Shown here: one piece after another, positions 23,682 through 49,169 of the stretch
How the letters are laid out: every line of letters begins with the position of its first letter
Numbering within the stretch: the stretch's first letter is position 1
NCBI GenBank assembly: GCA_021234155.1
Contig: JAJEKV010000046.1
Location: 1,416,298-1,480,297, forward strand
Origin: Isoetes taiwanensis
Taxonomy: Eukaryota > Streptophyta > Lycopodiopsida > Isoetales > Isoetaceae
Direction of reading: 5' to 3'
DNA: 64,000 nucleotides
Translations under genes and position numbers: made by a program
The notes under the pieces: generated by a model
The model's input: only the letters and a program-made list of their open reading frames with translations
Databases searched by the model: none
Told to the model about the DNA's origin: nothing

Positions 23682-25438
23682 AAGCCCCTGCAACACATGC
23701 CTCGTGGATCCACATGCATTCAAAATCCAGGGGTCAACCCATCTGAACACCAGGTCAAAAGCCTTCTTGTGGCCTGCAGCCTTCTGCAGCCACAGCCCAC
23801 CCTTGAGTGAGCAGTGGCTTTCTCGGGTTAAGCAGTTTAGGCTGCGACATTTTTGAAGATTGAAGTCAAAGAAGACCCTGCATTTGATTCCATTCCCTAA
23901 CCATTCTTACTCCATTTTATTCTCAGCCTTTGAAATTTCCTGCCTTTTTTCCTATATTTATACTCCCTTTGTTCACTCTGCATACCCCACTGTCTCACTT
24001 AATTTTTCTTTCCCCCACACTTCCTTATTCCCATAATTTATTCCCACCATTGTTCTATATAGCTTTTTTGTGGTTCTTTTATTTCCTTTGCTATGTTTCT
24101 TAATTTCCATATCACTTTATTTACCATTGTGCTATGTTATGTTATGGAATATTCCCTTCATATGCTTAAACGGTGGTATATTCTAAATATTAGGTTGTTC
24201 TTTTGTTCCAATGGCTCACTCTTCTGTTGTTTTATGGGTAACCCTTCCAAACTATAGTCTAGTTTCTTCAAAAACTCAAAATACTAATATTCATGGTTTA
24301 TACTTTCGAGAAATACCATGGACCGTATTCTGCATTCGTAAAAATATACCGAAAGCAGACCTAAACTAGAAACAAGCTCTAATCACTGAACCGAAGTTCT
24401 TAAACCTTAAAACATTTCCTGCCAAACCGATCCCCGCTCTTTAAGCATCAAATTGGGCTCAAATCCAAGCCCCAAGATGCCTTAATCATAAAAAATTCAA
24501 ACTTCTATATACCAGGAATCAACAACGTAAGCTCTTTCAAGGCCCTGCTCAAATCTGCGGATCATCAGCCTGGAAGTATGATTTTAGTTGATGCGAAGAC
24601 TTCCAGTAATTCTCATCTCCTAAGATGGTTAATTTTATTTATTAGCATGATAGACTGTTGATTTTTTAGTACTGGGTATATACTCAATACCATGACTGAC
24701 TCACCCCCTACACCTAAAACCTGACGCCCACTAAATGTTCATCCCACTCACAATCACCGCACCCCACGCAAAATCTCCTCGCACTTTTATTGCCTCGGCC
24801 CTGCCATCAGAACCTCGGCATAATAATCCCATTCATATGTTTTGGAAAATCCAAAACTCCACTCACAAACTCCTCTGTTAGAAATTTCTTTACTCGCTTT
24901 GATCGTTCTTGACCGTATTTTAACAAATCCACAAAATTATTACTTTTGCCTATCCAAAATGGAACGACCATTTGCCCATGTTCTCATCATCACACATATT
25001 TGCTTTCTGGGAAATTTCTCGCACCGCCACAACCCAAAATCCCACCCCATCAATGCTGACGGACTCTCAATAATCAAAATTCCTGACTGCAACTCGAGCC
25101 CCAATGAACCCCACAAACCGTGAAGTTTCCTGACTTCGGTCAGAGGCTTGCATCAGCACACCCACAACTTTTTGACCAAGTTCACGCGATTGACTCAAAA
25201 ATCAATCTCGCATATCAACACCACTAAGCGAAAGCAAAGGTGTCAATTTCTCTCGAAATGGGAAAAGGTATAAAACTAAATTTTGAACTTGTCTTTGAAA
25301 TTATTCTTATATAGATCTATCACCTTAAGTGGATTCGAGGTTCTAACCTTTTAATTTGAGGAAATCGCTTGGGGTTCACTGGAATTTCCAAGATGTTTTC
25401 TGTGGAAATCTTCTTTGACGGTCAGAGGATTCGAACTA
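23681..25438 (+). repeat. Gypsy-2 5' LTR, left piece
   Basis: Aligns with the 3' LTR from about 43503 onward: for example ATGCATTCAAAA, then TTTGATTCCATTCCCTA, the TATATTTATACTCCCTTTG promoter-like block, and AACTTGTCTTTGAAATTAT. About the first 11 bases of the LTR are lost or altered next to the (CT)n. The last 80 or so bases (about 25352-25438) do not match the 3' LTR. Confidence 0.85.
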
Positions 25439-25944
25439 TGTCACGGGATTTGCAAGAAAACAAAGGAGAGGGAAAGGAAAACAAAAGAACAATGAGACAA
25501 CAATGATAAGCCTTTGATATCAATGATGATGATACATGAGCTCTCGCAATCGAGAAAACCAAGTGAGACAAGACTCAAAACTCATCTAAAACCCATGTGC
25601 TAGCTCTACTCATATATATAGTACAATGGCCTTTGCCCAATATAGACACTGGACATTTCTCGCGGTTTACTCGAAGGTGCGGCCTCGACGGTGTGAATGC
25701 CGGCTGCTGCCTCCCCGAAGTGCTCGAATCACGCTGATGCCGGACGCGCCAAGCAGGATAGCCGGCCATTGCCTCGAAGCGGGCGCTTTCTTGGTAGCAG
25801 CACTCGTGTCTTAATCAAGGTGGTTCGGCTGCTATTCTGGCCGGGCCTTGACGATCGACCTATCACTGACAGATCCTTTTTGACTTGACTTTGGTCCATC
25901 AGATAGAGTGAATAGTCCCGCACTCAGAGGCAATGTGATCAACA
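25439..25944 (-). repeat. Gypsy-1 3' LTR
   Basis: Pairs with 35901-36398. On the plus strand both begin TGTCACG followed by GGGATTTGCAAGAAAAC and contain TAGCTCTACTCATATATATA, whose complement gives a TATATATATGAG promoter-like box on the element's sense strand. Confidence 0.88.
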
Positions 25945-26317
25945 CTCCCACTAAACGACACTCACCAAGGAAAGGAGGAAGCAAGCCCGAGGGTGGGGAA
26001 TCCAACAACAAAGATCCTCACCTGAATGAGGATTATGGTAAGTGCTTATGAGATCCCCGACGTTTGAAGTATCAGGGAGTGTTGAGCCTAAGAGCGTGAT
26101 CGAAGAAAGAATGAGGAAGTGAGCCGCACCATGTCTTCTGTGGCCGATGGGCTTCGTGGTAGAAACAACCGCACTCCATGAGTAGGTGGCAAACTGAGAC
26201 CGCGCACCGACGCCGCATTCGGGTTGCAGTAAAAGATGGGACGCCGCTTATTTAAGGAGCCGGAATCGGGATGCATTTTGAGAGCAGCAAAGAAAAACCG
26301 CCGACGGACCTGGCGGG

Positions 26318-27120
26318 TCAGGTGAGGTGGCGCGATACGCAAGAAGGTGTCAAGGCCATGAATAGCACCAAACAGGCGCTGCCAACCACGCCATTAGCAA
26401 TATAGAGCCAATTTGTAGTAGTGTCCAAGGTGGCACCATCCTCCCAATCGGAGCGTCGGACAAAACGGGGATCCCACCGGAGATCCGTGGAGATCTCAGG
26501 TGGAGTCGACCCAGCGTGGCCATCCAGGACCTTCATCCAAAAGGGAAGACGCCCGGTCGAAGAGAGGAATCGTGGGCGGGGAGGTACTCCTAAGGAAGCA
26601 TATGGAGAGGGAAGCATGCCCGGGTGTGCATTGGGGTCAGCGAGCCATGTCCCTAAATGCTTGAACAAGATTCCCGATCAAGAGCACGGCGGTGACAATG
26701 GTCCCATTCTGAAGTAGAGAGTAATTGATAGATAGGAGGATTGACCCAACCCGTGGGGATGGTCTTGCTTTCCAGAAGGCCACGGAGTTGATTGTAGCCT
26801 CCCAAGTGCTGCATATAAATCTGAGCAAACTCAAGATCATCGGTGCGCCCGGATTTTTGTTTACATGTTCAATGTTTCAACCCGCCATTGCAGGCAAGTG
26901 GCCGAGCAAGTTCGGCATGTACTCCCCGTTCAAAAGTCCGAGACCGAAAGCGGGATCCTTGAAATATTTGTTGGTTGTTGATAACAACCAAGCGGCATTG
27001 GAGTTGCCTCGAAAAACACGATGGGGCCTCATCCCGGAATTTATCATGGAGATCCGCCCGGGTAGAAGTCATAAAAACATAAGCCATCGGCTGAACAACA
27101 CGGAAAATGACCACCGGGAT
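26318..27120 (-). pseudogene. Possible membrane-protein-like ORF remnant in Gypsy-1, downstream of integrase
   Basis: Minus-strand frames 26637-26840 and 26318-26668 overlap by about 30 bases and look like one reading frame broken by a single shift. Each carries a hydrophobic run: GTIVTAVLLIGNLVQAF in the first and IANGVVGSACLVLFMAL in the second, both long enough to span a membrane. The position, sense strand after pol and before the 3' LTR, is where some plant gypsy elements carry an extra ORF. I do not recognise a family. No signal peptide or cleavage site can be shown. The hydrophobic runs could be chance. Confidence 0.35.
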
Positions 27121-27702
27121 CTTGAAGTGAGCTGATCAAAGACTAAGAGTGCACAAAATAAACCCTTGTCTTCTATAGAAAGATCCGCCAGATTCGAAGG
27201 AAATCCCACTTTTGAGTGGTCGTTGATGAACATTGCCATTGGCGCGATACCACTTCAAAAGGAAAAGGTGCCGCCGGGCCACCACATAGTCAAGATAGCT
27301 GGAAGGAGTAGAGAAGTCCACGGGATGTTGGTAGCAATGTCAATATATCCCTCCCTGTTTGTTTTGGGCTTCTTCAGCCAGATTGAACCGCTTCTTGGAG
27401 CCGGTGTTCAAGCTCACGGATCCGATTCTCCTTTTCTAACAAAAAGATCGGACCGATCACGGACCCGTTTAATAGGAAGCGTGGCATGTGAAGAGGATTG
27501 CCCCGAGTATTGAGACGAAGCGTGGCAAGCTCAAGGCCATCGAGGACCTTCGCTTCTCGAGTCTCCAAAAGCCGAAGTCCGGAGGGATGTTAACCGATTT
27601 GTCACCGCGGAAAACGAAGCTTCAAAGGAGGTGTGAGTCGCCACGCCAAAGGAGGTCTTGAACTTGAGTGCGGTAATTTTGAGAAAGTCGAATACAAGGT
27701 TT

Positions 27703-29059
27703 CTAGCTTAGCAATGTCTTTCTCCTTGTCACCAGAGGGTATCGCTTTGACTTGTTCCATTCCAACAAATCTTGAATTGTGGTTTGAGTCGAGCCTTCCT
27801 CGATCTTCAAGTAGGCTTGTCTCGATCCCGAGCACTTTTGAGATCTACACGGCCCGTAATAGAGCCGCGGCTTTTCTTGAAGTTGGGCCTCCAAAGTTTG
27901 AACTTGTGCAGTTGCAGCTTGGAGGTCTCTTTGAACTGCATCGGAAGTCTCCAGGGATGCCTGAACACCGTTCATGAGAGCCTCCCGTGATGCTTGAAAC
28001 TGCATGGCAGCAGCCTTTGAACATCCCGGCCTGGAATTTGTACAGAGCCGCCGAGGATGTGGAGGCGGGGCCCGTTGCTGCTTTGTCCCGGAGATTGTTG
28101 AGAAGCATGACGAATTGGAAGGCGTGGCTTCGTGAGGAGGAAGAGGAGACAAAGGATATGCGTGGTCGGTGTTGAACGGGGACGAGGGAAGTCCGGCGCG
28201 GAAGGTACAAATTTTGTTGAGTTTGATACCGGAATGCAGAGAGCGCTGAGTGGAGGCATGGGAAGTGGAAGGGCTCTCAAGAACAGGAAGATAATGACGG
28301 ATGAGTGCCTGAAGATGGCCACCCACTGAAACTTCAGAGACAGAGGAGGGGGTAGCCCGAATGCGGTCTACTTCTTGAAGAAGGCGGTAGAACAACAGCT
28401 GTGGCCAATCAACATGCAGATTGGAGTGGATGGCAGTGATGACCATATTATAGAACGACTTATTAATATGGGTGTTCTTGATGGAATACCCAAGCAATTT
28501 GCGCCACAGAAACTTCACAAAAGTGTCATGTGACTTTGCAATATTTGTGATAAGCAGGAGCACCGAACTGAATGACGTCCATGTCCTGTAAAGCAGCCCA
28601 AGAGACAGAAGGTTTTTGCAAAGGAATACGGAATACCTCAGAAATCAAATGCTGAGTAAGTAAAATGGTGGTGCCATCGACCACCGTAGCAAATCCTTCC
28701 GGGCTGTTGACGATGTGAGCGATGAACTGCTGCAATTGCTCCGGATTTGGGGCCGGGAGCTCCATTTGCGAGAATTCGTAAAGCTTGTGGCATTCCGCTA
28801 CTTCTCGACTTGGACCAAGAAGGGCCTCGCGAAAGGTGGGCGTCGAGAAAGACACAGACTCGAAAAGAGCCGCATCCCTTGGAGCAGAAGCTTGAAGGGT
28901 AGGTAATTTGGGTGCAGCCATGGCGTAAGAGCCGAACGTAAAGAACCGCGGTGTCGAAGCATTTGGAGAGCGAGAACGTAAGACGAAGGCGCAGATAGAC
29001 GAAAAGGTTTTAGGGCGCGCAAGTGTAGGCGAAGGGGCATGATGAGGGCGAACCAGCAA
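27703..29059 (-). pseudogene. Extra sense ORF of Gypsy-1 after integrase, one frameshift
   Basis: Two overlapping minus-strand frames, 28526-29059 (177 residues) and 27703-28563 (286 residues), differ by one frame and overlap at 28526-28563. Together they make a protein of roughly 450 residues. The likely start is the internal MAAPKLPTLQ. The first part contains a helical segment with EGFATVVDGTTILLTQHLI; the second continues with WRKLLGY and NMVITAIHSNLHVDWPQLLF, which resembles the plant-transposon protein found beyond pol in Athila-type elements. The C-terminal part includes a predicted coiled coil around LQAATAQVQTLEAQLQEK. Function is unknown. It lies about 790 bases past the integrase stop, on the element's sense strand. 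Further coiled-coil-like sequence appears at 27374-27440. Confidence 0.6.
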
Positions 29060-29849
29060 CCGTTGATGATGCCAGGTGGCGACAGATGCGAAGGAGGTAA
29101 TTGAAAGGCAAAATTTTGGCTAAGTCCCCAAATGGTAAAGGGAGAAGCAATGAACGGTGGCGATGAGACGTAAGGGAATGATCTGATGTGACAGGTGGCA
29201 AAAGGACACACATTAATGTTCGACGGGCGTGAAAAGAAGGAATGTCATTTAATGCTGGCAACTCGAAGTGGGATATCATTAAAACGAAGGTGTCAGAAGG
29301 TACCATGGCTAGATATGCGGCGGGAGAAAAGATTCCCCATTTAGTAACAGCCTTGCATTGCAACCACGTTGACGAATTTTCTGATTGGTCCACGTCGACA
29401 GGGAGTTCCTCGGTTGGCTATATAAGAGAAACATGGGTTGAAGCTGAGACACCCGATGGCGCTCAGTATGTCTGCTGCTGGATTGCACAACAAGTGCACC
29501 ATGCCGTCTAACTGCCTGGAGTGGATTACGTGCAAGATGGAGTGCCTTGACCTCTGGCGGTGCCACAACCGTGGCATTGCCATGGACGGGTGGTGTGCCG
29601 GGATGGCTGAGCTTACTAATGGGATGGAGGTGATTCTGCACCTGCGCTGGGACCCTGAGCACAATTACTACCACATCCTGCGTATCACCTCTGCTCCGAA
29701 CCCGGAGCAGAGGGGTTTTCTTCTTAGGACTTAGGAGATAGGGCTCTGAGCCCGTTTTTGTAAATAGGGCGCTGCCCATAGCGGAAGTAGATGGGCTTTG
29801 CCCACATTTTGTAAAAAATTCCACCTATATAATATAAATATGCCGCCAG

Positions 29850-30990
29850 TTAGTCACTATCTGTTGTGGCTTTGTCTGGAACAGCAGCTGTTGTATGATT
29901 GTCACTTTCGGTTGTATGAAATGGTTTGAGGCGAAAGCCATTAACTAGTGTAGGTAATGGAGTTCCATCTAATTCAGCCAGCTTGAAAACGCTGGGTTGC
30001 ACCACCTGAACAATTTGATAAGGGCCAAGCCATCGAAACTTTAACTTGCCCGGAAAATTTTTATAACGGGAATCATAAAGGAGAACTAAATCACCTTCTT
30101 TGAATGTTTTTGTCTTAATACGTTTGTCATGTAAAGACTTTTGCAACTGTTGTCCATGAAGAACACGAATATAAGCATCACGCCTAAGTTCATCCAACTG
30201 TTCCAATTGATAAACCCTTTCTTTGAGTGCAGCAGGCGGATTATGGGCTGTAGCCAGTTGAAAACGGAGAGTTGGAAGGATGTATTCAAAAGGCATGAGA
30301 GCTTCTTGACCATAAACCAATTTGAAAGGAGTGTGACCAGTAGCTATTTTGAAACAAGTATTGTAAGCCCAAAGAACAGTAGGAAGCTTGTTTTGCCAAT
30401 CAGTGCGAGAAGCGTCACAAATTTTCTTGAGAATTGTGACCAGAGTTTTGTTGGTGCTTTCAGCCAAACCGTTCCCTTGAGGATAGTAAGGTGTGCTCTT
30501 GTGATGATGGATCAGTAGATAATCCGTTAGCTCCTTTATGGTATGATTGATAAAATGGACACCTCGATCACTGACCAGCTCCGTGGGGCAGCCAAAACGC
30601 GTGATGATTTGCTGATAGATGACCTTGGCCGTGCTTGCCGCAGTGTTGTCTGGAAGTGCGCAAGCTTCCGCCCACTTGATAGCGTAGTCCGTGAGAACCA
30701 GAATGTAGCGGGCACGGGTGTGCCGCGCAGGAGGATCGATGGATCCCACAAAATCCATCCCCCATTTGCTAAAAGGAAGTGGCGTGGCGACCAGCGTCAA
30801 TGGAAGAGCGTCACGGGCCGTGGGCCGGCCCACACGCTGACAAACATCACACGTGCGGGCGTGGGCGTGAGCGTCTTTGAAGAGCGTGGGCCAAAAATAA
30901 CCTGCAAGAAGGATTTTGCGTGCCGTGGTGTCACCATGAAAATGACCACCACCGAGCCCTTCATGGGCTTCTCAGACAATATCTGGGACC
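29850..30990 (-). CDS. Gypsy-1 integrase
   Basis: Integrase joins element cDNA to chromosomal DNA in the nucleus. The frame 29850-30833 is open for 327 residues. The DDE triad is visible: Asp27 in WGMDFVGS, Asp89 in VSDRGVHF, and Glu125 in PQGNGLAES, giving the canonical D-x35-E. The C-terminal region has the GPY/F-type module (GDLVLLYDS, then RWLGPYQIVQ). The upstream HHCC zinc-binding part (GGHFHGDTTA, then TCDVCQ) lies at about 30830-30990 in adjacent broken frames. No chromodomain follows. The integrase is the best-preserved domain of this element. Confidence 0.9.
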
Positions 30991-31010
30991 TCATGAGGGA
31001 GAACACAGCG

Positions 31011-31700
31011 TCAAAGGACGGTATCCTTGCCTCTTTTGTAAAGATGGCCTGCAACCATGGTGTAGTCACGGACCTCTCGGAGAAATTGGTGTCGACGGGA
31101 TTGACGCTTGGCTAGAGAGAGCGTGGCGTCCTCTGGTGGAAGAGCACCTGTGAGGAGATACTGCTGAAAGTTGTGGAACCAATGTGGCGTTGCCGTGACC
31201 AGAAAGAGTTGAGCGTCAGGAAAGGCGTCTGAGACTCCCGTGGAGGAATCATCTGTGTGGATGCGTGAAAGATAATCCGGGACAACATGAGATTTGTCTG
31301 CCTTGTGAACAATTTCAAAAGGTGCAAATTCTTGCAGAAGGAGAACCCAACGAGCAATGCGGCCCGTGGGCGTGGATTTGTTGATCAAATAAAGGAGTGC
31401 TTGGTGGTCAACAAAGAATTTGATCTGACTGCCTAAAAGATAGTGACGGAAGCGTTGGACACAGAAAATTAAACCCAAGGCTTCACGCTCTGTGGCAGAA
31501 TAATTGCGCTCAGCAGGATTGAGTTTTCTGCTGGCATATCGGTTTGGTTTGTCAGGGTGCGCATCATATTCTTGAGAAAGAACAGCTCCAATAGCGAACG
31601 CCGAGACATCTACATGGACGTGAAAGGGCTTGTCCCATTGAGGAGGAACAAGAACCGGTGCCTGAGTAAGTAAAAGCTTCAACTGTTGGAAAGCAGCATC
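31011..31700 (-). CDS. Gypsy-1 RNase H domain
   Basis: Open frame of 223 residues at 31011-31682. RNase H removes the RNA strand during reverse transcription. Catalytic residues are visible: Asp in HVHVDVSAFAIG, Glu in SATEREALGLIF, Asp in FFVDHQALLYL, and Asp in VVPDYLSR. The connection to RT on its N-terminal side is lost through frameshifts, and on its C-terminal side the frame runs toward the integrase zinc region. It is the usual gypsy-type RNase H in its normal place after RT. Confidence 0.88.
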   Translation of the reverse strand, partial: DAAFQQLKLLLTQAPVLVPPQWDKPFHVHVDVSAFAIGAVLSQEYDAHPDKPNRYASRKLNPAERNYSATEREALGLIFCVQRFRHYLLGSQIKFFVDHQALLYLINKSTPTGRIARWVLLLQEFAPFEIVHKADKSHVVPDYLSRIHTDDSSTGVSDAFPDAQLFLVTATPHWFHNFQQYLLTGALPPEDATLSLAKRQSRRHQFLREVRDYTMVAGHLYKRGKDTVL

Positions 31701-31719
31701 CGCCTGGGAATTTCAAGCC

Positions 31720-32830
31720 CAGGTGGATTCATCCCCCGTGAGTTTATGAATGGGATCTGCAATGCCTGCAAGTCCAGGGATGAAGGTGGAGTAATAATTT
31801 ACCTTACCGGTGAAAGAGCGTGTCTCCTTGATATTGGCGCGGTGCTTGAGCCTTGAGCACACAACCGATTTTGGCGGGGATCCGTGGTGATACCGCTTTT
31901 GTCGACAACGTGTGTCCTAACAGAACACCAAGTGACCCAAAAGGTGCATTTCGGGATTGAGACTAATGCGGACTCATCACATTTCGAAAAGACGAGTTCC
32001 AATTTATCCAAATGGTCAGCCATGGAACTCAGAGGCGAGAGAAGTCATCTTGAAAAATTTGCAAGAAGGGATTTTCCTTCATAAAATCATGAAAAACCGA
32101 GAGCATGATCGTTGAAACGTTGATGGAGAGTTTGATAATCCAAAAGGAACCACCTTGTAGGCAAAAAGTGCCCCCAGGGGTGGTGAAAGTTGTCTTGAGT
32201 TGATCAGATTCTTTGATTGAGATCGATTGTAGCCGGAAAAAACCATCCATGAAGGAGTACATCTCATGTCCGGCGACCTCTTCGAACCCGGTGCAGCGGA
32301 AGGGAAGTGGAAAATGATCACGCCCGCGGCCTGATTTAGTTTAGGTAGTCCACGCAAACCCGGATCTTGCCATTGTGTTTGAGGGCAATGACAATGGGGC
32401 TCACCCATTGTAATGTTTGACCTCATAGATCAAACCGGGACAAGGAGTTTGTCAATTTCTGCCTTGTCCGATCATGGTGGTGGGGTTGAGCGATGCTACC
32501 GTTGCTATCTTTGGGCGTGCATCGGTTTGGTAGGAATGGTAAGTTCCCCAAGGTTTTGTTGATCCCCGAAGGTCTCTGTAGCTCCGTGCTAAAAATGTGT
32601 TTGAACTTTTTGAAGAGCGTGACGGCCCTCGATACGATAGGGTGTCGGAAGATTGGCAAACAATGCGGACGGTGATTGTTGCCCACGCCCACAATCTCGA
32701 CTTCGAGGAGTTTGAATATGTGGGATGACTTCCGTGTCTTTGACAATATGAGCGAGGAGGTTGAAACATGCCAGGATGAGTGGCGCCTGCGTGGTGAAAA
32801 AAAGAGGTTACCCGATTGTCATCAAGCAAA
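31720..32830 (-). pseudogene. Gypsy-1 reverse transcriptase, frameshifted
   Basis: Split over several minus frames (32452-32829, 32079-32426, 32029-32262, 31799-32023). Recognisable parts in order are VSPIV-like and D-G-LRGLPKLN-like sequence, YSFMDGFFRLQSISIKESDQ, VPFGLSNSPSTFQR, and the catalytic box, which here reads FQDD where Y(I/L/V)DD is usual; both aspartates remain. A DHLDKLELVFSKC stretch follows. Several frameshifts make it inactive. Confidence 0.82.
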
Positions 32831-33289
32831 AGGTTGCTTCATGGCGGCGTGTACATCAACGAGGATCTGGAGGAAGTTCGGCATCTGAAAAGTGATCAAC
32901 ACGTTGGATGCAATTGCAAGGAGCCGGTAGGGTCAAGCAAGGCAGCCACACTGGTCTTGATCAAGCGTCATTTCTCCCCAAGGATCGCGATATTGGGGTA
33001 GGATGACAGAGGACTTCATCGCGGTGGAGCCTCGAACTTGATAGATATTCGGGTATCCTTTAATCGGTGTCGGGAGAGAGGGTTCAGCATTATCAACCTA
33101 AAATGATCTTACCGTTTCCAAGTCCATAGTGGCATTGAGGTGACCATCCGTGATGACTAACTCGATTCGTGGCCCAATAATGGATACTCTTGGCCTGGCG
33201 GAGGAAAGGTCTGCCCACCAACATTTCATAATCACCTGGATCTTCTCCAGCTTTCCAAACACCAAATTATAAGGGGAATCGGAGATCAC

Positions 33290-33580
33290 CAATGTTGATG
33301 TGAAGAAGAGGTGTGACTCCTTGAGGTCGCGGATATGGCCATTAGCCAATTTGATGTCATATGGGGCCGCGATAGAGTTGTTTGATGCCCATTTGTTTGC
33401 GGAGTTTGTCCAGAATGAGATTGACAAGCGCTACCTCCGTCAATTTGAACATGATTGACTTGTTGATTGCCCACCGTGGCATGTACCGTGTGGGTGTAGA
33501 GGTAGCGACAGCCCCAACCAAAGCTGGCCGGAGTGGTAAGCCGGGTCCTTTGAGAGCAGGACATAGTTTCAAAATTGTTG
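33290..33580 (-). pseudogene. Gypsy-1 protease fragment
   Basis: Retropepsin-type active site in two overlapping minus frames: NHVQIDGGSA in one and ALVNLILDKL in the next, where a complete enzyme would read through. The aspartate and two glycines of the active-site loop are present. It lies between the gag zinc knuckle and RT, as expected. Confidence 0.68.
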
Positions 33581-33899
33581 CTTAACTTAAGGGAATTTTT
33601 GATTTTTGCCGCTCCTCTTGGAGTTCCAGAGGCACATGAGAAAAAGGATCACTGGATCCACGGGTCTTGGAGTGCATGGTAATGAAGCAAAGAACTTCTT
33701 TTAGTAGGTCGACCTCTGCAAGCAATATTAGGATATGTCCGAGAGCGTGGAGGTTGAGATGTGGAAGGTGCCTCTTGTCTTTGCCGAGCTCTCGGTGGTG
33801 GCATGAACATTAGCCAACGTGCGGCCTTGCCAGCCTTTGCATGAGGTTGAGAATGCTTTGGCGTTTTAGGCATGACATGTGGCATGAGTTTGTCCAAGT

Positions 33900-35780
33900 C
33901 AGGTGCAAAGTGAACCTTTTTGTCCTCTTCATGAGGGATTGTGTCAACGGCAAAGGCAGGTTGCGTGCCATTAGGAATAATGGTTAGGGGCGTGGAGCCC
34001 TGGTCCGGTCGCGGAAACTAAACCAACACAATTTGACGGCTGGACTGGAGGATTAAGAGCCTGAAAAATTTCTTCATGTGCTTGTTGATCCAGCTGAGGT
34101 TGATTGGCAGGAGTTGGTTGATAGCGTGATTCGAGGCGCCGCGAGGTGGCTTCCGAAGAACAGGGGCCCGGGCCTTGTTTGCCGTTGGCAATCCAAAGTT
34201 GGTAAGCCGTGAGGCGGACCGAGGTGGTCCGATTGGTGCGAGGAAGCCGCACTTTGAACTTGTGGAAGTTGAGGACATCTTGGTTGTGGTATGACCCCAT
34301 TCGTGGATGATGATAACTGCCGAGCTTTAGAAGGATCAAAGGGGCGTGTGTTGGGTCCCGTTGTTGCTCCTATTGCTGATAGAGTTGATTCGGTTGAGCT
34401 GCGGTGGTTCGGCTGATATTGCGATTATTCTTTGAGGTGTTGTTTGCACTTGATAAACCGGTTTGTTGCGGAATGGTGTAGGATGAGTGCGCGTGCACTC
34501 TTCCCGTGGCATGATTGCACATGTTGCATCTTTTACAATGAGGCGGGCCATTGGTGGAGTTGCACTCATTTGCCAAGTGGCCTTGATATTTGCGGATATG
34601 GCACCAGATCCGACTTATTTCCGGAAAGTGGCGATGTTGAGGTTGGACCGCAGATGTGGAACCATGGATCGGTGGAATGAAAGGAGTTCACGAAGAGCCA
34701 CGCCACGGGAGGAAACATTGATCGAAAGTGATTGACAAGGTCGATAGCTTTGCTCCAAAGTCTTGGGCCAGGTATTCGGCCATGAGGTAGGATAGTCGGA
34801 GGAAGTCCTTGGAGAAACCAAACCAAGATCCGGCTCGGCTCCGTACTCCTTGAGTTTGGCCGGGATGTGAAGTCGATCCGCAAAAATCCTGGCCCGGACT
34901 CGTGGGCTCTTGTTGAAGGTCATTGAGTTGCTTGAGATGAAGTTGATCATCATCCGTGGTTCCATAGTGAGAAAGAAAAGGGTTTTCATTTCTCGACCAA
35001 TCTTGTTTCGAGTGAGCCACGCTTGATGTGGTGCAGGAAAAGATATGGAATTTCAGTTGAGGTTGTGCATGACCATTTAGGGCAGCGAGCCTCAAATTCT
35101 TCCATGTGGGCTCGAGCACTTTTGGTCTAATGGTTTGCCTTCGTGTTGCCAAAGGTTGGATAAGTCACTTTTAGGGTCCGGAAGGTAGAAGTGAAAGTGT
35201 TGGGCTGGACAGAGGCTGGATAGGGATTATATTGAGGTGGAGTTGGAGGTGGCATGGTGCCCGAAAGACCCCGATGAAGGGTTCTTGAGGTGGAGGGACC
35301 GGAGGTGCACGATCATTGGTTTTTGGAGGTGCGTAAGGTTGTAAACGGGAAGAGCGGTGGGAAATGTAGGGAAGGGAAAGTCCGGGGAGGAGCAAAAGAG
35401 ACATGTGGATATCCCCGTCCACCCGGAGGAGATGATGGTTGTGAAGGCAGAGGATATGGGCTGGAAAGAATAATGGATATAGGCATGTTCGGGTAAGGAA
35501 AGTAAGGTTGAGAAGGTTGAGCCCGGATAGGGCCCCTGATAGTGATGAGGTGGACCGAGGTTGTGAACAATGTTTGCACGCTTGAGGCAGAATCGGGACG
35601 CAGACATGACACACGGTGGGTGGGTGGCGGAACAGCCCGACCTAATGTGGCCTCCCTCAATGTCATAAGCAGCCATACATGTATTAACAGCTTCCCCTTC
35701 GGGATGATGGCGCTCAAGCCGGAGGCTGGCCGGGAAAGCAGCGTTCATCTGGCGGAAGTTTCTACGCATACGGCGCATTT
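33900..35780 (-). pseudogene. Gypsy-1 gag, frameshifted
   Basis: Nucleocapsid/capsid region on the minus strand. The N-terminal part (about 35170-35780) is proline-rich. The middle (34566-35152) has W- and L-rich capsid-like helices in several frames. Near 34570-34615 is a zinc knuckle CHIRKYQGHLANEC whose second cysteine has become arginine, followed by KRCNMC, a partial second knuckle. Many frameshifts are present. Confidence 0.65.
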
Positions 35781-35900
35781 AAGAAAAGGAAAATCGGGCA
35801 GACCCGCAGCTGGCTGCATGTGTTTGGGGTCCGGGTTCGAACTCCCGCAAGCAACCCTCGCGGAGACCCTTGATCTACTGTAGAGGATCCAAGGGGACTA

Positions 35901-36398
35901 TGTCACGCCAGGGATTTGCAAGAAAACAAAGGAGAGGGAAAGGAAAACAAAGAACAATGAGACAACAATGATAAGCTTCCTTGATATCAATGATGATGAT
36001 ACATGAGCTCTCGCAATAGAGAAAACGGGTGAGACAAGACTCAAAACTCATCTAAAACTCATGTGCTAGCTCTACTCATATATATAGTACAATGGCCTTT
36101 GGCCCAATATAGAACACTGACTGATTTCGGTGCGACTCTGGAAGGAGGCCTGATTTTGAGAATCTTTGGCGGTGCCTCTGAAGTGCACGAAATGTGTTGT
36201 GTTGTATGGTGTGATGGACCGTCACTTGTCCGAGCGGCTCTTCTTAGTAGACCCCGGGCTTTATTTGCGTGGTCTGCTTTGCTTAATCTCTCTATTTGGG
36301 CCTTTGACGACTGACCCACGCCTGATTGTGGATCCTTGGACTTGACTTGGTCCATCGTATGCATGAATAGTCCTGTACCAGGAGGCACAGGACTAACA
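35901..36398 (-). repeat. Gypsy-1 5' LTR
   Basis: Partner of 25439-25944. On the minus strand it runs TGTTAGTCC... to ...CGTGACA. The outer boundary is exact because the sequence resumes the Gypsy-2 LTR (ACTCAAATTGGTT) immediately after it. Confidence 0.9.
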
Positions 36399-36490: not shown

Positions 36491-37623
36491 ACTCATGGCT
36501 CCAAAGCAGAAGTTTCCAGCAGAGCAAGAACCAATATCAATGGAAGACCATGGTACTTCAGAACCCTGCTGAGATAGATCTCTTCCCCCAAGTTTTTCAA
36601 CCGGATTACTTCAAGGTTTACCTTACCAGCTTGAATTAAATGTGCCTACTCCATTGCCTACTTTTGATTCCAGTATGAGTGCTAATACTTTTCTAAGGAT
36701 TTTTGAAGATTACTACAGGGATTATGGCTTCAAGAAAGGGTGCAAGTTCTCACAATTTGAAAAGTGTTTTAAAGAGGAGAGTTGACTTATGAAAAGCTTA
36801 TGGGAACCACTTCTTGGGATGATCTTGTTACTAAGTTTTTAGACAGGTTTGGAAAGCTTGCTGCTCCTAAGGATCTTGTTAATGAATTGCAAAATTTTTC
36901 CATTTATGCAGGTGAAAGTGTTAGTCAGTATAAGGAAAGATTCAGCACCTTCATGAGTAGATGTCAGAAATGCCAAGTTATTGTCCCCACGCTTTTTTTG
37001 GTATCCTCTTTTATCAAAGGCCTATCTTCTAGACCAGAAATTCATAGAAAGCTTATCAAGATACAAGCTGCAGAAGGTTTTGACTCCATCTACAAAGTTT
37101 TTGCCAAGACTCTTTGAATTGACCAAAATGCTCTCTATCCTACCGGAAAAACATCATAGCTTTCAAGATGACCCCTTTTACCTGATGCCAACATCACCAC
37201 TCTGTTCCTATCTATGCTGTGCATAAAGAAAAGAAAAAGACCAAAGAGGAAGAGGCTGATTCTCAAATCTCAGAGGTCAAAGCTGACTTGACAAAGGTAA
37301 CTGAGGCTTTAGCAGAAGTAACTAAGCAACTTGTGGAGCTCAAAGCAAGCAGAACAGGTAGAACTTATCCCGAGTGTATTCATTGTGAGAACTTCACATC
37401 CGGTGATATTTGTTATTGGCAAATATGTCCTAAATGTAAAAAGAAAGGTCATTTTGGTAGGGAGTGTCGATGCATGCTTTTTGCAAAAGAAATTGGCCAT
37501 CTTGACCTTAGGTGTCTTGTCAAAGAATATTTTGCCAAGCGGGAAGAGAGAAGAAATCTGGAGGCAACTCCTCATGTGAGGTTTGTTGAACCTACTAGTT
37601 CTATAAGATTTGTGCAACTCTGA
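36491..37623 (+). pseudogene. Gypsy-2 gag, frameshifted
   Basis: Begins at ATGGCTCCAAAGCAG about 38 bases after the LTR. The capsid-like part (36782-37117) has the retrotransposon gag pattern: SWDDLVTKFLDRF, LVNELQNFSIYAGESVSQYKERF, and FIKGL. After a break, 37219-37623 encodes a Lys/Glu-rich start, a coiled coil around SQISEVKADLTKVTEALAEV, and an intact zinc knuckle CPKCKKKGHFGREC. An early stop near 36570 and at least two frame breaks make gag non-functional. Confidence 0.82.
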
Positions 37624-38941
37624 GAGATGCCAAAAGCGAGGAAGTAATGGTGGTACAAACCCGGAAGCATGGGACGAGATCCATAGACCTGCCGAGCCTA
37701 ATAAGTTTGTTCCAGAGCAATCCAGAAAATCAACATTACCATTACCTCCTATTTCTCCTCAAGAAATAGCTCCACCTCCTCAACAAAAGTATGGTAAGAA
37801 AGATCAAGATCTGGATGAGTTGGATGTTTTACTGAAAAATTCCAAAGTAAGTGTGGATTTATTTACCTTACTAAAAATTGCCCCTGGTTATAGAAAAAAG
37901 TTATTACAACAAACTACTTTTAGTGAGGCAGTGGCTTGTGTAGGTGTTGCAAATGCTAGTAATCTTATTTTAGCTCAAAATGAAGAAGATCCAGGTGCAT
38001 TTATGTGTTCAGCCACCCTAGGAGGTTATTCTTTTTCCAATGTGTTGCTAGATGGGGGCTCACCTCTAAATATCACGCCTTATCATGTCATGAAAAAATG
38101 TGGGTTTGAGATAGATAAGAGGTCATCTGTTTTGTTAAAATCCTTTTCTAATGCTAAAATAGCACCAGTTGGAATTGTGACTAAAGTGCACATTATCTTG
38201 AAAGGCATTGTTGTAGCGGCCAATTTTGTTGTTGTTGCCTTTGAAGATTTAGGAGAAGATGCAGATATATATGATCTCCTGCTAGGGAGAAGGTGGATGG
38301 CTACAGTTGATGCTAGACCAATCTGGTCTGAAGGGAGATGCACCATTTCAAATGGCACTCAAGTAGCCACAATTTACAATCAGGATGGTTCTTATGGCTT
38401 CAGGGAAGAGGTACATTTTGTTAAAGAAATGCTTATAGAAGAGCCCCTAGGATCTTATAGTTTAGCAACCCCTAGCACAAAGGAAACAGACCTGATTCCT
38501 TTGATTAGAGAGTGTGCACTACCTTCTGAGAATGGGAAAAAAGGATGTTTGTGGTTTGATGGAGGGATTTCAAAGAAATTGAGTGTGGCTTCATCTGCAG
38601 CCATACTGAAGGATACCTCCAATAAACTCTTGGCTAAGGTAGGAAGGATTTTTCCCCAAATCACTTCTAATGTAGCAGAGTACAAGGCTTTGATTGCAGG
38701 TCTTCAAGAAGCCAAGGCTATGGATATTTCAATCATACACATCTATGGAGATTCTCAGTTAGTGTGCAGACAGGTTAATGGTGAGTATCAGGCCAAGAAT
38801 GCTGACATGGAATCCTTGAGAAATCAGGTAATGGGAATGCTTGCTTACTTTACCTCTTGGGAAATTACTCATATCCCAAAGGGAAATTTAATTTGGAAGC
38901 GATGCTTTGTGCAGGGATACTTTAATGACTTATCTATCTGA
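37610..38941 (+). CDS. Gypsy-2 protease fused to archaeal-type RNase H, open frame, upstream of RT
   Basis: A 443-residue open frame. Residues about 130-250 form a retropepsin-like protease with active site LLDGGSPLN (Asp148) and the family's later LLLGRRWM motif. Residues about 310-440 form a second domain of RNase H fold, archaeal/bacterial-like: Asp317 in CLWFDGGIS, Glu357 in NVAEYKALIAGLQEA, Asp381 in IYGDSQLV, then WEITHIPKGN. All three core acidic residues are present. This type occurs in Tat/Ogre plant gypsy elements, where I know it after the RT-RNase H block; here it sits between protease and RT. The frame stops at 38941, but a shifted frame continues (ADALCRD-like), so the original polyprotein ran on into RT. 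Confidence 0.88.
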   Translation: MCNSERCQKRGSNGGTNPEAWDEIHRPAEPNKFVPEQSRKSTLPLPPISPQEIAPPPQQKYGKKDQDLDELDVLLKNSKVSVDLFTLLKIAPGYRKKLLQQTTFSEAVACVGVANASNLILAQNEEDPGAFMCSATLGGYSFSNVLLDGGSPLNITPYHVMKKCGFEIDKRSSVLLKSFSNAKIAPVGIVTKVHIILKGIVVAANFVVVAFEDLGEDADIYDLLLGRRWMATVDARPIWSEGRCTISNGTQVATIYNQDGSYGFREEVHFVKEMLIEEPLGSYSLATPSTKETDLIPLIRECALPSENGKKGCLWFDGGISKKLSVASSAAILKDTSNKLLAKVGRIFPQITSNVAEYKALIAGLQEAKAMDISIIHIYGDSQLVCRQVNGEYQAKNADMESLRNQVMGMLAYFTSWEITHIPKGNLIWKRCFVQGYFNDLSI

Positions 38942-40785
38942 GGGAGCTATCCCAGAAGAAGATTGATGAGGATGAGGCTAAGGAATTCTGTCCTATATTA
39001 GTTATAAATGCATCACAAGAAAAGGCAACCAATGAGGTTATAATTAATAAAAATGGCCAGCAAAGAACTCTGTTTGTAGGAGATCTCTTTGACACACAAA
39101 ACAAGGAAGAAATTACCAAATTCTTTGAAGAGAGAAATGATGTGTTTGCTTGGGATTATTCTGAGCTCATTGGTATTAAGGAAGAGGTATGTCAGTTTGA
39201 AATTAAAATTAAAGAAGGTTGTAAGCCTGTTTTCCGTAGTTAAGGAGGATCAATGCCTCACTTTTAGATCTAATTAAGGAAGAGTTGCATAAAATGTTGG
39301 ATGCAGGTGTTATTGTGGAAATTATTAATCCTGAATGGGTGTCATGCATTGTTCCAGTGGAAAAAAAAATGGTGCCTTGAGAATTTGTATAGATTATCGA
39401 GACTTGAATAAAGCCACCATAAAAGATTGTTATCCTTTACCCTTTTTAGAAGAAATTTTATATCTTTGTTGCGAGGGGAAAGACATGTACTCATTTTTGG
39501 ATGGTTTTCGGGGGTTTAATCGGATTAGCATCAAGGAGGAAGATCAGCCAAAGACTTCATTTATCACTCCTTGGGGCACATATGCCATGAAGAGAATGCC
39601 ATTTGGCCTAATGAATGCCCTGACCACTTTCCAAAAAGAGCAATGGATGTTATTTTCAAGACCATGTCTGCTGAAGAGTTTAGGGTGTATTTAGATGATC
39701 TTTGTTTGGGCTCTCATTCTACTAACCATGTGGAATTACTTGCAAAACTTTGCTCTTTATGCAGGACTTCAGGAGTCAATCTAAATCCAAAAAAATGTAT
39801 CTTTTTTGCACCTAAAGGGCAGCTGTTAGGACATGAAGTGTCCAGCCAAGGTATTCAGGTTGCTCAGGATAAGATTGAAGCTCTCAAGAAGTTAGCACCT
39901 CCCAAGAACTTGAAGCAGGTTAAAAGTTTCATTGGTATGACGAGTTTTCTTAGAATGTACATTCCAAATTTTGCTCATATTCTGAGTCCCATCTCTAAGT
40001 TGACCAGGGTAGGTAAATTTTCCAAATCTGAAAGCAAGCACATACCTATTACATGGACTTCAGAATGCCAAGAGGCTTTTGATTTTCTCATTTCATCTAT
40101 ATGTGAAGCTACTCTTTTGAAAAAACCAGATCTGAGCATGCCATTTGAAGTTTATATCACTGTTACCAAAAAGGCCATAGGTTTAGCCATTTTACAGGAC
40201 AAGCATATTATAGTCTTTGCAAGCAAACAATGGTCTGCTCTTGAAGAGAGATACACTAGAATAGAAAAAAGTGCTGCTGCTCTCATGTTTCTTATCAATA
40301 GGCAAGGGCATTTGCTTCTAAAGAGCCAGGCTCAAGTTCATATGAAGCAAAACCCAATGGGTTTGCTATTTGGTAAGGCAACTAATAAACCAAAGATCCA
40401 GAGATGGACTTGTAAGTTGCAAAGTTATGATATTTCTGTAAAAGAGTTGCACTTGACACGAAATCCTAGCCTCTACTTGCCTTATATATTTTTTGATTAT
40501 GAGGATGAATTGAATACTACTGACACTTCACTTGCAGTAGCACACTTGGAAGTAACTCAGGGAAATCAAGCCCAAGGAGGATGGCAGCAACCTATTAGAG
40601 ATTTTTTACAACATGGAATCACCTCTCCAAACCTCACTCCAAGTCAGAAAAGAAGACTTAAGGACAAGTGCAGACAATTCAAGCTGATAGAAAATGTCTT
40701 ATGCAAAGTTAACAGGGATGGAATCTTGCTGAGATGTGTAAGTGAAGAAGAATCTGCCTTGATTATTAGAGAGCAGTATTGTTAA
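38942..40785 (+). pseudogene. Gypsy-2 reverse transcriptase and gypsy-type RNase H, frameshifted
   Basis: The RT fingers start near 39230, after a linker with DVFAWDYSEL. Frame 39335-39694 holds GALRICIDYRDLNKAT, YSFLDGFRGFNRISI and RMPFGLMNALTTFQK; a frame change then leads into 39571-40785 with the catalytic box VYLDDLCLGSHS and KCIFFAPKGQLLGHEV. The thumb and connection follow (SFIGMTSFLRMYIPNFA). The RNase H in its normal place (about 40130-40490) is eroded: the first catalytic Asp region reads VYITVTKKAIGLAI where TDAS is usual, although Glu in RYTRIEKSAAAL remains. The frame stops at the 815-bp insertion. Confidence 0.88.
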
Positions 40786-41599
40786 AAAACCTCGTTTTTA
40801 ACCATAGAGTACTTCTTAAAAAACCCCTACGTTTTCTAAACGTTTGCAACCATCGGGGATTATCAAAAAATGTAAAAAAAAAAAAAAAAAAAACCATTAC
40901 TAATGCCTCGAATGACTTTCATTTAGATTTTCTAGTCTAGCAAACAAGATTTTGGAACTATGAGCAGCCGCATGAATGTAGAAACATGCCGAATGCATGT
41001 AGAACCAGGGTTTTGGTTTTTTGTTGAATGAAAGAAAGGTTTTTACTCCACCATGCAAACCAGGAAACAGTTCTTGCGCCAATCCAAGACCAGTCGACCA
41101 AGGTAACTTTTCCATTCTTCTTCTTTTACAACTAATTTTATTTCGATTCATTTTTTCTATATTGCTTCAAGATCGATTGCCATAAGTGATAAATAGAAGC
41201 GAGGAAATTAAAACCATTCAAAGGTATATACGCTTCAAATAATTCTTTTTTTTTTTTACCTATATTCATTTCTCTTCTATCTACCTCTAGTATGATAATA
41301 AGCTAAACCTTTATGTTAGTTGTTATATTATTAAGTTAAACCTTTGAATTGAACACATTTTTGTGATTTGATTGGAACCCAAATATGGTGCTGGTATTAA
41401 AAAATGTCATATAATCTGTTTCATATTTGGGGTTTTTAAAGTTTTTTGTACGTTTTTTACGTTTTTAACGTTTGCAACGTTTTTAACGTTTTTAATGTTA
41501 TAAAAACGTATTCTAAGATTTTAAAAATAAAAAATAAAAAACTTTAAAAAAACTTAAAAAACGTATGTTACCCGTACGATATGCAAAGTATGTAACAAC
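40785..41599. mobile_element. 815-bp insertion in Gypsy-2 pol with 7-bp target duplication
   Basis: ATTGTTA occurs at 40778-40784 and again at 41600-41606, and between them lies sequence foreign to pol. On the left, pol reads up to REQ; on the right it resumes with IVREMHKGICGGHFAGDTTA, the integrase zinc region. The insert is AT-rich, has no long ORF, contains an A run at about 40871-40892, and has iterated ACGTTTTTAACG-like words at 41450-41510. Clear terminal inverted repeats are absent. Its class is unknown; a non-autonomous DNA element is one option. Confidence 0.75.
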
Positions 41600-42590
41600 A
41601 TTGTTAGAGAGATGCATAAAGGTATCTGTGGAGGACATTTTGCTGGGGATACCACTGCAAAAATATTCTCAGGTCTGGATATTATTGGCCTACTGTTTTT
41701 AGAGATTGCTATGAGGTTATAAAAACTTGCCATCAATGTCAAATTTTTAGTAAAAGAATTTTATTGCCAGCTGCCTTGAATCCTATCATATCTCCAGGAC
41801 CCTTTCAAATCTGGGGACTAGATTATATTGGTCCCATTAATCCTTCTTCTACAGGTCAACACCAGCATATTATTGTGGCTACAAATTATTTTACTAAGTG
41901 GGCAGAGGCTATACCTTTGAGGCAAGCTAATGCCCTCTGGCTACCAAAGGGTTTTACATGAATTTGTTTGCTCAGATTTGGTATTCCTTTCCAGATACAT
42001 TCTGATAGAGGTACCCCCTTTGTTAATGAAGTCATTGCTAATTTGTTGAGCATTTTGAAGGTCAAGCATACCAAAAGTTCTTCATATTATCCTCAGGGTA
42101 ATGGACAAGCTGAATCTACTAACAAAGTGTTGAAAAATATTTTGCAGAAAACAGTGGAGATTAACAAAAGGGATTGGCATATCAAAATAGTGGATGCACT
42201 TTGGGCTTATAGAGTCACTATCAAAACAGCTACAAATCATACACCTTTCAATTTGGTTTATGGCATAGAAGCAGTTCTACCAGTAGAGCTTGAATTACCT
42301 TCCTTGAGATTAGCTCACAAATTGTGCTTACCTTTTGAACATGCCTTACAGGAAAGACTGGATGCCCTGTTACATTTGGATGAGTACAGAATGGAAGCTG
42401 AGAACACAAACTTGCTGAAAAAGGCTAAAGATCTGGCTGCATTCAAGGCTGCACACAAAATACAAGGCACCTTTAAGAAAGGAGAGCTTGTTCTCAAATG
42501 GAACAAGTCAAAGGAGGATTCAATTGGCAAATTTGATAATATTTGGGAAGGGGCCCTTTGTAGTGTTGGATCCTGCAGGTATTAATTCTT
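41600..42590 (+). pseudogene. Gypsy-2 integrase
   Basis: Three neighbouring frames. The zinc-binding part is at about 41603-41760 (REMHKGICGGHF, then CHQCQ in a shifted frame). The core starts at 41764 with FQIWGLDYIGPINP (first Asp) and stops at 41961. After a short break, 41968-42585 has SDRGTPFVNE (Asp13 of that frame) and PQGNGQAEST (Glu49), again D-x35-E, and ends with the GELVLKWNKSK region. The whole triad is visible but not in one frame, so the enzyme is dead. Confidence 0.85.

Positions 42591-43489: not shown

Positions 43490-49169
<5,680 letters not shown>

Follow-up and report, generated by a model that had tools for sequence, protein, structure and literature searches.

How does a plant retrotransposon come to carry a ribonuclease H (RNase H) of archaeal type ahead of its reverse transcriptase, and what might that enzyme do there? 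The question is raised by an element in a 64,000-nucleotide stretch of the Isoetes taiwanensis genome (assembly GCA_021234155.1, contig JAJEKV010000046.1, forward-strand positions 1,416,298 to 1,480,297; this whole stretch is the window in what follows). An earlier note on this DNA had taken the order of the element's domains to imply an independent acquisition or a domain transposition. That order, protease (PR), archaeal-type RNase H (aRNH), reverse transcriptase (RT), native RNase H (RH) and integrase (INT), is already known, and it is old: it was published in 2023 as structure #2 of five structures of the Tat lineage, present in clubmosses and gymnosperms and accompanied by a degraded native RH (Biryukov & Ustyantsev 2023, PMC10508981). 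The window element is almost certainly a broken copy of such a Tat-lineage Ty3/gypsy long terminal repeat (LTR) retrotransposon with the plan gag-PR-aRNH-RT-RH-INT, in which the upstream aRNH is most likely the cutting enzyme and the native RH a structural tether. An apparently new domain order turns out, then, to be a published architecture. What is added here is evidence at the level of individual copies for a stable and old order in one lycophyte, and for constraint on the apparently inactive native RH; no mention of Isoetes was found in the main text of PMC10508981.

Two RNases H flanking the reverse transcriptase

The open reading frame at 37610-38941 is shared by a protease region (37955-38389) and the aRNH (38516-38905), both, like every other part of the element itself, on the plus strand. 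The protease region carries LLDGGS, which we take to be a protease motif; it has no Pfam match in the window, and it is homologous to a region of L045 (one of the divergent loci introduced below) that matches Asp_protease_2 at E 6.1e-4, below the cut-off. The earlier note had proposed an RNase H fold in this frame and a domain search to check it. The search bears the proposal out: residues 316-424 match RVT_3 (PF13456) at E 1.9e-16, with RNase_H also matching below cut-off, and comparison of the domain with the PDB yields six sequences at E up to 0.1, of which RNase H1 4e19 (E 3e-13) and Rv2228c (3hst) are the closest, followed by ST0753, 2ehg, 3u3g and 4h8k. A profile built from 11 aRNH rows retrieves the same six sequences at E <= 0.01, and RNases H from E. 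coli, human or retroviruses are absent from its PDB matches at that threshold. The six are presumably all archaeal-type RNases H. With these Pfam and PDB matches, the idea that the domain is not an RNase H is ruled out.

The three catalytic acids already pointed out, Asp317, Glu357 and Asp381, are in place, but the domain is not complete, as had been supposed: in the window the frame shifts after HIPK, ahead of the fourth catalytic Asp. That residue is kept, within an EADALCR-like stretch, in the best aRNH match of all 23 other 7.9-kb loci described below and, in the 11-row alignment, in each of the 10 rows besides the window's. Over 34 rows (the window, 25 loci and 8 divergent loci) the first three acids read D in 34/34, E in 33/34 and D in 34/34.

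In the window the aRNH lies 3' of the protease region and 5' of RT, native RH and integrase, in agreement with the order first read from the sequence. RT itself is split by a frame shift over two overlapping frames, 39335-39694 and 39571-40785. The first holds its N-terminal part (39335-39694; RVT_1, PF00078, E 1.5e-11) and the second its C-terminal part with YLDD (39571-40050), which matches RVT_1 positions 132-205 at E 6e-6, below the cut-off by itself, and aligns to the Ty3 RT 4ol8. The native Ty3/gypsy RH follows at 40051-40470 (RT_RNaseH E 2.6e-16 and RT_RNaseH_2 E 1.4e-16; PF17917/PF17919). Alignment to Ty3 RT-RH (4ol8, 7q5b) shows two catalytic Asp residues replaced by T and N and the Glu kept. 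The loss of the first Asp had been noticed; that account fell short in that the second is lost as well. Among the 34 rows, L010, L023 and L025 could not be read here on account of broken local frames. In the 31 readable rows the first acid is never D (T 24, S 3, I 2, H 1, L 1), and the later Asp is D in two, L043 and L045 (N 28, Q 1). Since these two loci retain the second Asp and the Glu is retained in 28 of 30 readable rows, degradation of the native RH is partial, and complete at the first Asp only.

The domain order among copies and among Tat elements

The gag domain, the order PR-RT-RH-INT and the LTRs identify the window element as a Ty3/gypsy LTR retrotransposon, the protease and the window's integrase being weakly matched by Pfam. 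An additional RNase H, whose archaeal type is indicated by the Pfam and PDB comparisons (the type label of the PDB matches being our assumption), and a native RH with lost catalytic acids, as in aRH-bearing Tat elements, make it very probably a member of Tat. Placement of the aRNH inside pol and 5' of RT, the mark of structure #2, is found in the window, in 20 of the 23 other copies and in all eight divergent loci.

Tat structure #2 (clusters E, F, G and J; PMC10508981) has its aRH 5' of RT in pol, a degraded native RH and hosts in Lycopodiophyta, and its domain plan showed no difference from that of the window element. In structure #1, the dual-RNase H form of flowering plants and others (PMC10508981), an archaeal-type aRNH is likewise combined with a degraded native RH, but there the aRNH comes after RT-RH. 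The earlier statement that the acquired RNase H of Tat elements follows RT-RNase H holds for structure #1 and fails for structure #2. Native RH is degraded in all aRH-bearing Tat structures (PMC10508981). Retroviruses too have an added RNase H and a native one reduced to a tether (RT-tether-RNase H; PMC10508981); theirs is of another type, in another position and of independent origin. The oomycete elements Chronos and Archon (PMC5348765, PMC10508981) have a second, archaeal-like RNase H and a native one whose catalytic residues are lost; they differ from the window element in their retrovirus-like dual-RNase H arrangement and their hosts.

The host assembly comprises 1,658,258,908 bases in 1110 contigs. 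A search with the aRNH gave 3499 candidates, of which the best 150, the window copy included, were scored; the element is thus present in at least 150 matches, and the others among these fall into groups of about 84-98% and 77-81% identity. Twenty stretches of 7.9 kb from across about the first 50 rows, and three of the second group, were fetched. All 23 have PR followed by aRNH on the same strand, and in 20 of them RT is the next domain (after a longer gap in L022). The remaining three, L018, L021 and L024, hold two copies each, the first broken off after its aRNH; the second aRNH leads on to RT in L018 and L021, while in L024 the end of the stretch cuts it short. These are tandem broken copies, in which a second gag-PR-aRNH or PR-aRNH begins after the aRNH end of the first. 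Integrase lies downstream on the same strand in 16 of the 23. RH was matched in 20 of the 23, and in none of these 20 is there an aRNH 3' of RH within the same copy. The short loci L006 and L008 run PR-aRNH-RT-RH, their sequence ending inside RH.

More distant relatives were taken from the best 150 of 2502 RVT_3 candidates: eight loci, picked from the high-scoring rows and not at random, and lying outside the window's subfamilies at 37-65% aRNH identity (L043 and L045 are nearly one family). All eight read PR-aRNH-RT-RH-INT, and in four naturally open frames among the divergent loci, 1387-1728 residues long, Pfam recovers aRNH-RT-RH-INT. An aRNH after RT and RH, the arrangement of structure #1 and the one that the earlier note had named as fatal to its reading, was found in none of the 28 loci that have RH plus sequence past it (out of 33 loci, all selected through their aRNH). 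These figures are no census of domain orders, since each locus was brought in by an aRNH match near the top of the scored hits.

Roles, age and origin of the arrangement

What the two RNases H may do can be approached through the constraint on them. Seven of the 20 copies of the first subfamily were compared with two of the three copies of the second (14 pairs). In five of the six domains there was at least one pair in which the number of synonymous substitutions per site (dS) was not computable; dS was 2.14 for INT, so that synonymous sites between the subfamilies are saturated or nearly so. Because dS fails for most domains, only the nonsynonymous counterpart (dN) was compared: 0.125 for aRNH, 0.090 for the RT piece, 0.127 for RH, 0.095 for INT, 0.186 for PR and 0.155 for gag. 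Native RH and aRNH have nearly the same dN, and what is gone from RH is therefore its active site, the rest being about as constrained as the aRNH, as befits a tether that is kept up and not a domain in decay. The earlier suggestion that a new enzyme is taking over from a decaying old one is right about the missing catalytic set, but decay does not fit a dN of 0.127 against 0.125.

In the mechanism that we favor the aRNH, within the pol frame and on the N-terminal side of RT, would most likely cut RNA during reverse transcription, and the native RH after RT, its catalytic acids lost, would be kept as a structural tether. Going one step further, with less than even odds, PR-aRNH-RT may be no side form but the set arrangement in at least three deep Tat groups of I. 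taiwanensis, with a replacement RNase H that would work from the N-terminal side of RT. If so, its geometry would be unlike the RT-tether-RNase H of retroviruses, and would be stable beside a conserved inactive tether. The upstream RNase H could instead be released by the protease and act in trans, or serve another step such as primer removal, with no covalent link to RT. In its favor, about 149 residues separate the end of the aRNH match (822) from the start of the RT match (971) in the open frame of L045, and rarer Tat structures have the aRH in a separate open reading frame (PMC10508981). On the other side stand the constant placement of the aRNH in pol across the sampled loci and the loss of acids from the native RH of the same elements, and we regard this possibility as rather unlikely.

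An origin of the order by independent acquisition or recent domain transposition in the window element, as first proposed, is highly improbable. It could draw on the different order of flowering-plant Tat elements, RT-RH-aRNH (PMC10508981), and on the deep phylogeny of aRNHs, which PMC10508981 did not settle and which leaves room for an old separate capture. Against it, the order is the published one, common to all eight sampled loci down to 37% aRNH identity; the authors of PMC10508981 prefer a single aRH acquisition followed by rearrangement; and the aRNH has diverged together with its neighbors. Pairwise distances of PR, aRNH, RT and RH, taken over ten representatives (the eight divergent loci plus two copies from the window's group), correlate with r between 0.87 and 0.96 (PR-aRNH 0.96, aRNH-RT 0.88, aRNH-RH 0.87), and none of 2000 permutations reaches the observed values. 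The ten fall into about three groups, and since aRNH distances track those of PR and RT across them, the order PR-aRNH-RT predates their split. Recent acquisition of the aRNH is ruled out by this co-divergence, and with the order both published and old there is no evidence for a new one. A separate capture in the distant past, earlier than the split of these families, may have occurred; co-divergence says nothing on one old capture versus two. That the window holds a lone rearranged copy or an assembly artefact, as its frame breaks, ~11-kb insert and 826-bp insert might hint, has next to no probability. The other copies, which lie on many contigs, refute it: RT comes after aRNH in 20 of 23, in two more by way of the second neighboring copy, and one is cut off; the naturally open frames have the same order.

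Several points weigh against the reading of the element as a structure #2 copy with a cutting aRNH and a tethering RH. Both searches selected loci through aRNH and among the best 150 hits, leaving elements that lack an aRNH, and lower-scoring families, unsampled. The loss from RH is partial, with Glu and, in L043 and L045, the second Asp retained. Saturation of dS bars a dN/dS ratio for most domains. The Tat assignment follows domain content and order, and the enzymatic roles proposed for the aRNH and the native RH are read from sequence. Finally, the 5' LTR is odd, at 71-79% identity to the 3' LTR.

Ends, inserts and surroundings of the window copy

The element extends past 37610-40785, the part to which the earlier note had confined it. 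Upstream it includes gag (36782-37117; Retrotrans_gag, PF03732, E 3.6e-11) and a C-terminal part of gag (37219-37623), in which a CCHC zinc knuckle is matched weakly (E 0.03 for zf-CCHC and 0.021 for zf-CCHC_5, neither reaching the cut-off), and downstream integrase, represented at 41968-42585 by the C-terminal part of the rve core and the sequence following it (rve E 0.0067, below the Pfam cut-off; homologous to the INT of other copies). RH and INT are separated by an 826-bp insertion (40774-41599). Wherever the alignment of a compared copy runs across this place, it passes over the insertion, in which no inverted ends were seen; the window holds no second copy of it.

Self-BLASTN defines the 3' LTR at 43715-45328 and 5'-side LTR-like sequence at 23820-25364, which matches the 3' LTR in two pieces, at 78.6% and 70.7% identity. 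Near the junction of the 5' LTR with the internal region lies an insert of ~11 kb (25365-36398), GC-richer, with a ~220-bp repeat, 93% identical, near both ends (25435-25651 and 35897-36119). Its minus strand bears frames that resemble gypsy RH and integrase, a label read from translated frames and not from a profile search. Across this insert the 5' LTR is joined to the internal region: window positions 25364 and 36399 are at most 3 bases apart on L011, the closest fetched copy (95.7% identity over 6435 bp). The 5' LTR-like sequence matches other scored places at 74-81% (mostly 74-78%; best match 78%), whereas in the closest other copies the start of the 3' LTR is 98% and the internal region 95.7% identical; the 5' LTR part appears to be far older or to have come from another source. 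Window 43700-44500, within the 3' LTR, has 39 other scored places at 86-98%. These include 10 LTR pairs on the same strand with a spacing of 8.0-8.5 kb, and one such pair brackets the aRNH of L011 in the same orientation. On contig C941 (G000:C941:7156368-7165462) a minus-strand LTR pair 8.3 kb apart surrounds a plus-strand aRNH match, as an inverted or nested element or by chance neighborhood.

Simple-repeat arrays lie at window positions 45315-45591 (CT-rich, after the 3' LTR) and 48096-48342. Elsewhere in the assembly, L039 (G000:C1068:3964634-3965368) has a 326-residue open frame matching Photo_RC at E 1.2e-63, psbD-like, in what is apparently a plastid-derived stretch of scaffold. On a 34.6-kb contig an accD-like frame comes after rbcL-trnR(CCG), and psbA-trnH is present as well; apart from the Pfam and tRNA matches, the plastid gene names on it are those that we presume to apply.

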